A stretch of 45,757 nt of DNA from Bacteriovoracaceae bacterium (GTDB lineage Bacteria > Bdellovibrionota > Bacteriovoracia > Bacteriovoracales > Bacteriovoracaceae). The notes beneath the pieces were generated by a model. It did no database searches, had not been told where the DNA came from, and worked only from the letters and a program-made list of their open reading frames with translations. This document shows, piece after piece, positions 13,978 through 18,211 of the stretch. Made by a program: the position numbers and the translations under genes. The stretch is from positions 1 through 45,757 of the forward strand of contig JAGSHI010000012.1 in NCBI GenBank assembly GCA_023954635.1. Reading direction: 5' to 3'. Each line of letters opens with the position of its first letter. Position 1 is the stretch's first letter.

Positions 13978-14628
13978 ATGATTAAGCTCTACCACTATAT
14001 CCATTGCCCTTATTGTGTTCGTGTCCGACTTGTTCTTGGTTTGTTAAATCTTGAATGGGAAAGTGCACCTTTGCCTTATCACGATGAGAAGACACCCCTC
14101 GATCTCACTGGTGTAAAAATGCTTCCAATAATTGAGATAGATGGTGCTCCTTCTAACGAGAGTCTCGATATAATTGTAAAGCTCGATAAAGATAATACGC
14201 TTGAAAGTTCACGCCTTGAAGATAAGAAACTACTTTCGGAAGTAGAAGATATTCTTAGTCAATTTAGCCTCCCAGTTCATAGTCTTTGTATGCCTTATTG
14301 GGCCTGGACAAAAGAGTTTAATGAAGAATCAAGAAAATATTTTCAAACCAAAAAAGAGAAAAAAAGAGGCCCTTTCCATTTACTTGTCCAAGACAAACAA
14401 AAATATCTTGATATGCTACCGTCACTCTTTGAAGAATTAACCAAAGAACTTAAGCCTTACTTTCGAAGTGAAAAGATCACGATATTAGATATTATGATTT
14501 CATCTCACCTTTGGGGACTTTATATTTATCCAGAGTTTCAATTCCCTAAAGAGATCCATAACTATTTAATGAAAATCAAGGAAGACTGTAAGTTTGATTA
14601 TCATGAAGACTTTTGGAAAGAAGCCTAG
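13978..14628 (+). CDS. grxB: Glutaredoxin 2 (GrxB family)
   Basis: A 216-aa protein with an N-terminal thioredoxin fold (active site CPYC at residues 10-13, cis-Pro in KMLPIIEIDG) and a C-terminal all-helical GST-like domain. Length and architecture fit E. coli Grx2, a glutathione-dependent disulfide reductase of the cytosol. No clear ribosome site precedes the ATG, but family alignment (MxLYxYxHCPYC) fixes the start. Its last 4 bases overlap the convergent EamA gene. Confidence 0.88.
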   Translation: MIKLYHYIHCPYCVRVRLVLGLLNLEWESAPLPYHDEKTPLDLTGVKMLPIIEIDGAPSNESLDIIVKLDKDNTLESSRLEDKKLLSEVEDILSQFSLPVHSLCMPYWAWTKEFNEESRKYFQTKKEKKRGPFHLLVQDKQKYLDMLPSLFEELTKELKPYFRSEKITILDIMISSHLWGLYIYPEFQFPKEIHNYLMKIKEDCKFDYHEDFWKEA

Positions 14629-15500
14629 AATACAAGAATCCTCATTCCTAATAAAAAGAAAATAAACGCTATTATGAGATAACGGCTGGGCCATTTTTTT
14701 GCAATAATACATTCAAATGCTGAAGAAAAAATTGTACCAGTAATAGCAATACCTGATAGTGAGGCAAGGTGAGCTTTTTGAAGGGCCATTAAATATAACC
14801 CTAGGCTTAAGTATGTACCTAGAAAACTACCGCCAATAGCGAGCCACTTTTCCTTTATTTCTAACTTTTTAAACGTATCTATAAAATTAATCGGTTTAAA
14901 AAAACTCCAAATAACGAAAACGAGAATTGCCCCAAAGCATCGATAAAAGTTTCCTTCAAGAGGCGTTAGATCTGGGTTTTGATCAAAAGATAATCTCGTT
15001 ATGACTACTCCTGTTGCATCTAATAGCATTCCAGTGAAGGCCATTAAGATACCTTTCATTTGCCAATGACCTTCTTTCTTAAATGCTTCAAAAGAAAAGG
15101 TAGCAATACAAAGAATAAAAAAAGTAATCGCCCAAAACTTTTGAATATCTACAGTTTGATCGAAGAGTAGATATCCCATACTTCCTAAAATTAAAGGTTG
15201 AAAACCAAAAAGAATAAGCGTTCTTCCTGGTCCCATAATAGAAAATGACCTTAGGAGGAATACGTCTCCAATCCCAAGACCAATCATTCCACTAAAAACA
15301 AGTAGTGCAACATAGAGAGGTTGGACTTGATTCCAACCAGTGGCAAAAACAATGGTAAAGGCAAAGGCAACAAAAGCGAGAGAAGCTTTAAAGAGATTCA
15401 TCCATACAGGACCAACCTTCCTTGAAAATAAGGTATAAACCTGACTTCCAAGAGCAAAGCAGAGATTAGCTCCAACAGCGAATAGGTAAACGTCTTTCAT
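14625..15500 (-). CDS. EamA/DMT-family transporter
   Basis: A 291-aa protein with about ten hydrophobic spans arranged as two EamA repeats, typical of drug/metabolite transporters in the inner membrane. Repeat 1 contains GMIGLGIGDVFLLRSFSIMG; repeat 2 contains LGTYLSLGLYLMALQKAHLA. Substrate unknown (amino acids, nucleotides or sugars in relatives). The start has a GAGGGG ribosome site. No operon partner is evident. Confidence 0.8.
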   Translation of the reverse strand: MKDVYLFAVGANLCFALGSQVYTLFSRKVGPVWMNLFKASLAFVAFAFTIVFATGWNQVQPLYVALLVFSGMIGLGIGDVFLLRSFSIMGPGRTLILFGFQPLILGSMGYLLFDQTVDIQKFWAITFFILCIATFSFEAFKKEGHWQMKGILMAFTGMLLDATGVVITRLSFDQNPDLTPLEGNFYRCFGAILVFVIWSFFKPINFIDTFKKLEIKEKWLAIGGSFLGTYLSLGLYLMALQKAHLASLSGIAITGTIFSSAFECIIAKKWPSRYLIIAFIFFLLGMRILVF

Positions 15501-16209: not shown

Positions 16210-16737
16210 TTATTTATCAACCATAGTCTTGATAAGATTCCCCATGAGAAGGGCCCCTGCTCCAAAAAGAACAGCATTAGTGACTTTATCAGAAACTCCC
16301 TTTCCTCTCTTTCGAACAATTGGTTTCTGGGCAGGAACAGGCTCAAGATTTTGATCTAAAACAGTCTTTTTATTCTTCTCTACTTTTAAATTTGATAAAG
16401 CAAAAGATTCGAGTTTATTTAAGTAAATAACATCAAGAGATTGGTTATTTTCAACTCCTCTTGTTTTTCGTTTCCCAATTTTGCCTTCAACCTTTACGAA
16501 CCTTCCTTTGTTCTTTTGAACTAAACTTTCAACTTGCTTATTACCTGGTTCAATCGGGTAACCAAAAACCTGCTCACCTTTCTTTACAGAGAGTAAATAG
16601 CTGTAACCAAAAAATTGATCCACTTGTTTTTCTGGAACCTTAATGATCTTCCCCCAGTGGACAATTTCATAGTCCTGAGAAGCAAAGGCTGGATTTATTA
16701 ATAATAAGATCGTTAAAAGTACCGGGAGAAGTTTCAA
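16210..16737 (-). CDS. Exported protein of unknown function
   Basis: A 175-aa protein with a Sec signal (MKLLPVLLTILLLINPAFAS) and a mature domain of about 110 residues rich in short beta strands (for example GRFVKVEGKIGKRKTRG), which might be OB-like. A Lys-rich linker follows, then a C-terminal hydrophobic helix (VTNAVLFGAGALLMGNLIK) that could span a membrane. The start is TTG at 16737 with AAGGA 7 nt upstream, 1 nt after the stop of the transglutaminase-like gene. The two genes are therefore co-translated and probably work together. Confidence 0.65.
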   Translation of the reverse strand: MKLLPVLLTILLLINPAFASQDYEIVHWGKIIKVPEKQVDQFFGYSYLLSVKKGEQVFGYPIEPGNKQVESLVQKNKGRFVKVEGKIGKRKTRGVENNQSLDVIYLNKLESFALSNLKVEKNKKTVLDQNLEPVPAQKPIVRKRGKGVSDKVTNAVLFGAGALLMGNLIKTMVDK

Positions 16738-16738
16738 A

Positions 16739-18211
16739 TTATTGTCCTTGTCTTGATAGCTCTATTAATTTGTCTACTATTTTAGCCAATGGCTCGCCTG
16801 AACGAGAAGCATATTCGTAAACTTTTTTCCAAGATTTTCGAACTGGCTTATCTCCATCCCAGCTAGAGTTACTTAAATATCGATCACCTACAGATAACGC
16901 TCTGGCTCCATTTGAAGGATTCCAAACAAAGTCAGGGTGATAAATATTATACCACTCCCCTCCAATAATATTCCCATCACTATCAAGCTCTAAGTCATAG
17001 ACATAATCTGCGCCGTGACTACGGTCGTGCTTAGGGGAGTCTTTCTCTCTTTGTCTTGGCTCAACCTCAACTCCATATTCAATATTCATAAATACGCCAA
17101 CAACTTGTCTGACATCAGGAGACCGATATTTTTTAAAAACATCTTTATCAAAATCTTCGATTTTAATTACTGCCTCCTTTAAAGAGTCTCTTGCTTCCAT
17201 GTTGTTTGGATTGAAATAACTTAACTCATAAGAGATAACTGGTTGATTCCAAACCTGATAATCATAGGTCGCATCAAAAACAAAGCTTTTATTTTTTATC
17301 CCTATCATATTCAACACACTCATATGCCACGCACCGGGATTGATATCAAAACATTCCTGGTCTTGAATTCTAATTCCATCCTCATCTACAGCGGGATCAT
17401 TTTGATTACAACGACCCCCTAAGAATTTCACAGGGAATTTTGCTTTAGCCCATAATAATGATGAAAGGGCCTTTATATCACTAGGATAAAAATTAATAAG
17501 TTCTCCATCAAACGCTGGAACTTGAACTTTATTTATCGGTCTCTTAACCATATAGCTTGCAGGAGCCCATCCGTGACAAATTCCCATCCAGGTTTCGACA
17601 TCACCATTTCTGTCATAATAATATTTCCCCTCAGACCAATTTGATTCAGTTAATGAAAAACTTTTATCTCCAAATAATAGATCGTATTTTTCAGATGGTG
17701 AAAGGTCATCAATTCTTTCAGGGTCGCCTGACTCATAAATACTTCCAGGACTTAAGTCAACGACGTAATCTCTTGCTTCTTGCCAATCATCTTTGTAGGC
17801 AAACATATTATCTGCATAGCGAGAGCCTAAAATCCCTTTATAAATTGGCCAGTAATCATCTGACCAAGGACCTTCCAAAACTTTTCCTTGATTCAATTGA
17901 AGATCATCCATCTTGAAGATATTTTTGATAATATTTGATGAAGGTATAAAGTCCTGAACTCTTTCATTTTCTTCTATTCCGGCCTTGAGAACCCCACTAA
18001 AAAGTAGTTTTTTCTTCCAACTATTTTTTTGTTCTACATAATCCTCATTTTGATTAAAAAGGATTCGAGCATCTTCATTATGATTATGATTAGTTAGATA
18101 GTAAGTTTTAAAATCTTTTTTAATTAAGTTAAGTTCTGCTTGAACTTCAACTTTATCTAAGGCCAACACATTAAATGATAATACGATTATAAAAAATGAA
18201 ATAAACTTCAT
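16739..18211 (-). CDS. Exported transglutaminase-elicitor-like enzyme
   Basis: A 490-aa protein from ATG 18211, preceded by AAGGAGAG and followed by a Sec signal (MKFISFFIIVLSFNVLA). The open frame runs upstream but without support. The core holds WMGICHGWAPAS (C212), FYPSDIKAL, FGGRCN-like LGGRCNQ, NPGAWHMSVLN (H296) and FDATYDYQVW (D313), a papain/transglutaminase Cys-His-Asp order. The stretch PWSDDYWPIYKG is also typical. The layout matches, from memory, the Phytophthora GP42 transglutaminase elicitor family, known mainly from oomycetes and some marine bacteria, which crosslinks proteins through Gln-Lys bonds. Likely secreted to the periplasm or outside. Coupled to the small exported protein at 16210. 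Confidence 0.65.
   Translation of the reverse strand: MKFISFFIIVLSFNVLALDKVEVQAELNLIKKDFKTYYLTNHNHNEDARILFNQNEDYVEQKNSWKKKLLFSGVLKAGIEENERVQDFIPSSNIIKNIFKMDDLQLNQGKVLEGPWSDDYWPIYKGILGSRYADNMFAYKDDWQEARDYVVDLSPGSIYESGDPERIDDLSPSEKYDLLFGDKSFSLTESNWSEGKYYYDRNGDVETWMGICHGWAPASYMVKRPINKVQVPAFDGELINFYPSDIKALSSLLWAKAKFPVKFLGGRCNQNDPAVDEDGIRIQDQECFDINPGAWHMSVLNMIGIKNKSFVFDATYDYQVWNQPVISYELSYFNPNNMEARDSLKEAVIKIEDFDKDVFKKYRSPDVRQVVGVFMNIEYGVEVEPRQREKDSPKHDRSHGADYVYDLELDSDGNIIGGEWYNIYHPDFVWNPSNGARALSVGDRYLSNSSWDGDKPVRKSWKKVYEYASRSGEPLAKIVDKLIELSRQGQ

Follow-up and report, generated by a model that had tools for sequence, protein, structure and literature searches.

Gene organization

The window, meaning the whole stretch of 45,757 nucleotides that was analysed, carries on its minus strand (the strand of the P0001 and P0002 features below as well) a gene at 16739..18211 encoding P0001, a GP42-type transglutaminase of 490 aa that belongs to Pfam family PF16683 and is predicted to be exported. 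Its ATG has AAGGAG just 5'. As read from the sequence, the protein begins with a predicted Sec signal peptide lacking a lipobox Cys (residues 1 to ~17; 18161..18211, with a putative cleavage point), followed by a predicted propeptide (residues 18-76; 17984..18160) outlined by an AlphaFold2 (AF2) model. At its end lies the tripeptide L75-K76-A77 (17981..17989), aligned with the [R/K]-[A/S] linker position of the family and predicted to be cut after K76. Conservation marks the catalytic Cys and its adjoining His as C212-H213 (17573..17578), together with H296 (17324..17326) and D313 (17273..17275), and alignment with PDB entry 3tw5 locates a Pep-13-equivalent stretch, VWNQPVISYELSY, at residues 320-332 (17216..17254). 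The motifs named in an earlier, sequence-only reading of this DNA (CHGWAPAS with C212, FYPSDIKAL, NPGAWH with H296, and D313) are all found in the translation; that reading had overlooked H213, the Pep-13-like stretch, the disordered linker with K76-A77, two further copies in the genome and a link to clostripain.

The P0001 stop codon (16741-16739) is followed by one spacer base and then by the TTG start, at 16737, of a 175-codon gene encoding P0002 (16210..16737), coordinates that agree with the single-nucleotide gap previously claimed. An AAGGA ribosome-binding-like site for P0002 (16745..16749) is situated inside the 3' end of the P0001 gene. Both genes are kept in a sister genome, with 71% and 66% identity, respectively, and with spacing equal within one base; the TTG start is supported by that genome, where the enzyme stop is immediately followed, at the equivalent position, by an in-frame ATG. 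Near PF16683, at 14625-15500 of the window, is an EamA transporter gene, and two further genomes of the class have one downstream of PF16683. Over 6.7 kb, a MAG that carries the label Halobacteriovorax sp. is within 0.5% of the host genome, which assigns the host to Bacteriovoracia; judging from that label only, the host is probably a predator.

Membership in the TGase_elicitor family

PF16683 (TGase_elicitor) is the sole Pfam family reported for P0001, at 130.6 bits against a cut-off of 25 (E 7.8e-38; model positions 19-341 of 361), and NCBIfam returned no model. A phmmer search matched the protein to GP42 of Phytophthora sojae (3tw5) with E 1.8e-25, and an AF2 model, built from 59 sequences with a mean pLDDT of 88.9, overlays the crystal structure with Z 28.4 and 2.5 A over 301 residues at 27% identity. 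Profile and fold matches both confirm the transglutaminase-elicitor assignment originally made from the letters. The next structural matches are papain-like cysteine proteases, Mac-1 and interpain A, at Z ~5. Many papain-fold enzymes are hydrolases, and this was weighed against a crosslinking function. P0001 could, in this light, be a papain-like protease or deamidase directing Cys-His-Asp chemistry at prey or matrix proteins, and the pairing with proteases documented below would suit a degradative cassette; we nevertheless consider this unlikely, as the GP42 fold match is far closer, the CH motif and the core of the Pep-13 region are retained, and the literature presents GP42 itself as a Ca-dependent transglutaminase (PMC9879208). 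An exported P0001 would probably catalyze Ca2+-dependent Gln-Lys crosslinking.

Among 121 aligned bacterial members of PF16683, all have C212, D289 and N291, whereas H296 and D313 occur in 120 each and H213 in 116, the five variants having N, D or E. The Cys212-His296-Asp313 triad proposed earlier is in keeping with the near-invariance of these residues, but for GP42 a classification paper names instead the His directly after the catalytic Cys, as a CH motif (PMC10318531), and P0001 has this Cys-then-His arrangement in C212-H213. On sequence grounds we favour C212-H296-D313 as the putative triad over the CH motif, because natural H213 variants keep H296 and all but one keep D313.

The Pep-13 region of GP42 is VWNQPVRGFKVYE (PMC9879208); in the corresponding stretch of P0001 only the start, VWNQPV, is identical. 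V320, W321 and N322 occur in 121/121 members, and P324 in 117/121. The full Pep-13 sequence, which P0001 does not contain, is a trait of the Phytophthora proteins and is not required for PF16683. Thus P0001 has in common with GP42, the source of Pep-13, the fold, the position of the Cys-His pair, the later His and Asp, and VWNQPV, and differs from it in the latter half of the Pep-13 region, which has diverged, while the bacterial proteins are further distinguished by an N-terminal segment with an R/K-A motif.

A locally conserved neighbour

P0002 is predicted, from its sequence and a low-confidence model, to comprise a signal peptide, a beta-rich part and a C-terminal hydrophobic helix (~residues 153-171; 16225..16281) apparent in hydropathy and in an AF2 helix at 149-174 (pLDDT ~50). 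These predictions bear out the initial description of a small exported protein with a possible membrane helix. With pLDDT 43, the AF2 model was too poor for a fold search; P0002 had no Pfam match and nothing above cut-off in NCBIfam, where an identification as type II secretion GspC was rejected at 14.2 bits against a cut-off of 101.6.

The sequence-only reading had also coupled the enzyme to this protein as a dedicated inhibitor, anchor or substrate. Adjacency does hold in two species of one genus, with a conserved spacing of 0-1 nt, and the predicted export and C-terminal helix of P0002 are compatible with such a role, as is the presence of a different exported partner directly downstream of five other copies in the sub-clade of the window copy. 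The P0002 family is, however, otherwise unlinked to the enzyme. A profile search found relatives, mostly of ~160-200 aa and with the same layout, in 23/129 genomes of the class (a count that takes in the window genome and its sister); ten loci from outside the genus were examined and proved to be surrounded by housekeeping or unrelated genes, three genomes (G043, G045 and G046) have a relative with no PF16683 among the matches listed, and neither other PF16683 copy of the window genome adjoins one. The pairing is therefore real but local, since relatives elsewhere are unpaired in the contexts examined and those three genomes are without a listed PF16683 match. Distribution and the gene contexts examined lead us to reject P0002 as a family-wide partner of the enzyme, and a dedicated functional partnership with P0001 itself seems decidedly unlikely; P0002 is a genus-level operon neighbour and perhaps acts as an envelope-tethered accessory.

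Occurrence among bacteria and relation to oomycete GP42

PF16683 is found in 94/129 genomes of the class and 208/369 of the phylum, so that the patchy bacterial distribution attributed to the family does not fit Bdellovibrionota. Up to 17 matches per genome were observed, with a strong expansion in Bacteriovoracia (e.g. G061, G059 and G060). Relatives of P0001 also occur in Thiothrix, Leucothrix, cable bacteria, Myxococcota, Vibrio and a cyanobacterial MAG. At the C-terminal end of nine Thiothrix-type copies, a low-complexity linker leads into a conserved tail resembling WL..LLRRWFG, which, from its sequence, is a possible sorting or anchoring signal. Vibrio proteins such as L060 belong to the same subfamily as the window copy, but, unlike it, L060 has a C-terminal ricin-type lectin domain and in the Vibrio copies the residue at the linker site is not basic.

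The nearest bacterial relatives of oomycete GP42 found here are 1201-aa proteins from another genus of the class, encoded at L137:357-3962 (G060) and L138 (G059), the former with PKD and PPC domains. Their PF16683 part scores 339-345 bits, reaches up to 45% identity to GP42 and retains VWNQPVR. In a tree with one oomycete sequence, on a long branch, GP42 groups with these two proteins at 100/99, and a grouping of GP42 with Vibrio is rejected (AU test, p 0.0013). Oomycete GP42 thus groups with Bacteriovoracia, not with Vibrio, and on this tree transfer may have gone in either direction. A 2016 review, citing Reiss 2011, confines GP42 homologues to oomycetes and some marine Vibrio and has them transferred from Vibrio to oomycetes (PMC4915311); the common occurrence of PF16683 in Bdellovibrionota departs from that oomycetes-and-Vibrio-only view.

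Pairing with clan CD peptidases and a basic linker motif

In many Bdellovibrionota and Myxococcota, clostripain-type C11 genes are located directly downstream of PF16683 genes, and in cable bacteria the partner is a caspase-like C14 peptidase. Within the class, 41 C11 genes were counted in 125 genomes (split matches merged by hand), and at least 22 of these lie directly downstream of a PF16683 match on the same strand, a lower bound obtained by comparing C11 positions by hand with the PF16683 matches listed. Well under one such pairing is expected by chance, because there are at most 17 PF16683 matches among the thousands of genes in a genome. This recurrent partner belongs to the PmC11/clostripain family (PF03415), with which it has WGHG and D-x-C in common; in most partner C11s both WGHG and D-x-CLM are intact, and the Asp of the latter is considered to set specificity. 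Characterised PmC11 accepts Arg or Lys in P1 and cleaves itself in KLKA, between the second K and A (PMC4850288), and its self-cut residues L-K-A are those at the linker site of the window copy. The body of literature searched contained no paper describing an operon of C11/clostripain with a transglutaminase, nor any on clostripain with Bdellovibrio or on transglutaminase in cable bacteria.

Other arrangements were also seen. At three cable-bacteria loci (L020, L054 and L062) the caspase-like C14 gene is flanked by two PF16683 genes. A second recurrent partner is an exported protein of ~260 aa encoded directly downstream of PF16683 at five loci (L007, L010, L023, L039 and L115), apparently with two repeats with paired Cys; two members were scanned against Pfam and gave no match.

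The segment between signal peptide and catalytic body varies across the family, except that one spot is mostly [R/K]-[A/S]. In the P0001 model a helix extends to residue 39, pLDDT then falls below 50 at 48-56 and 58-81, and K76-A77 lies inside this disordered (lowest-confidence) stretch; the structural alignment with crystallised GP42 begins at residue 81, just past K76. The extended form G-[R/K]-[A/S] is present in 29/29 C11-coupled and 4/4 C14-coupled copies, as against 6/66 uncoupled ones (Fisher 7.6e-19, without correction for kinship), and at loci first inspected once the motif had been recognised it occurs in 9/9 coupled and 0/14 uncoupled copies. The six uncoupled carriers include L072, where a C11 gene is present with a called start that overlapped too far, and four second copies of cable bacteria, of which three sit in a caspase cluster and the fourth on a contig that is truncated; L048 is simply an exception.

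Whether this association reflects processing has to be judged against shared descent. When mapped on a tree of the catalytic part, coupling must have changed at least 10 times and the motif 12 times, and on the well-supported branches there are only 2 independent coupled/uncoupled pairs, so that the motif association is not significant after strict kinship correction. Kinship may be its source. The motif might accordingly be a structural or ancestral feature and the C11 adjacency merely inherited, without functional processing, a reading that gains from the occurrence of [RK][AS], when no Gly is required, in 41/66 uncoupled copies. We regard it as improbable: the preceding Gly tracks coupling across Bdellovibrionota, Myxococcota and the separate, caspase-coupled cable bacteria, and the linker site falls in a stretch that the model leaves disordered.

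The three PF16683 copies of the window genome differ in these respects. Copy three, on contig C69, is followed after 7 nt by the one C11 gene of the genome and has a G[RK][AS] site as well. Copy two (L006/L086, contig C40) has a GCS2-family (glutamate-cysteine ligase) gene 19 nt downstream, and its linker site lacks a basic residue. The window copy, with P0002 as its neighbour and no member of the PmC11/clostripain family encoded beside it, has L-K-A rather than G[RK][AS] and, in the tree of the catalytic part, is placed in a sub-clade (support 91) whose members have no C11 gene next to them.

Implications of a proposed zymogen model

The correspondence between linker motif and coupling, together with the cleavage by C11 enzymes after Arg or Lys, argues for a secreted crosslinking zymogen that is activated by a clan CD protease. 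On balance, we lean toward viewing P0001 as an exported zymogen of the GP42 type that is freed by a cut in its linker, most likely, across the family, through a neighbour-encoded clan CD peptidase. The protein would be secreted as a proenzyme consisting of signal peptide, helical propeptide, flexible linker and catalytic body. A cut after the basic linker residue (K76 in the window copy; usually R/K-A) would then release the catalytic body. Once free, this body would join extracellular or surface proteins through Gln-Lys isopeptide bonds. In the phylum at large and outside it, the cutter would most likely be the clan CD peptidase encoded next door, C11 or, in cable bacteria, caspase-like C14. 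For the window copy, two features of its locus count against the model, namely the lack of an adjoining protease and the L, not G, before K76; it would perhaps be cut by the sole C11 of the genome, beside copy three on C69 (a guess), or by another protease.

Microbial transglutaminase of Streptomyces is a zymogen cut by proteases; should the zymogen model hold, P0001 would function in a similar way. The Streptomyces enzyme belongs to a different family, with the active-site order C-D-H (PMC10318531). More broadly, we tentatively propose, as an idea that may or may not hold, that a GP42-type transglutaminase and a clostripain or caspase-like protease together make up an activation module, encoded as an operon and not described before, that is comparable to clotting factor activation and strongly expanded in Bacteriovoracia, and that the closest bacterial relatives of oomycete GP42 are in this class, not in Vibrio. 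With a protease-transglutaminase pair and a conserved predicted cut site, the activation of this class of enzymes becomes directly testable. P0001 may have a role in predation, for which the sequence-only reading had suggested the crosslinking or sealing of envelope proteins, and enzymes of this kind are candidate crosslinkers for modification of the envelope, the sheath or the prey.
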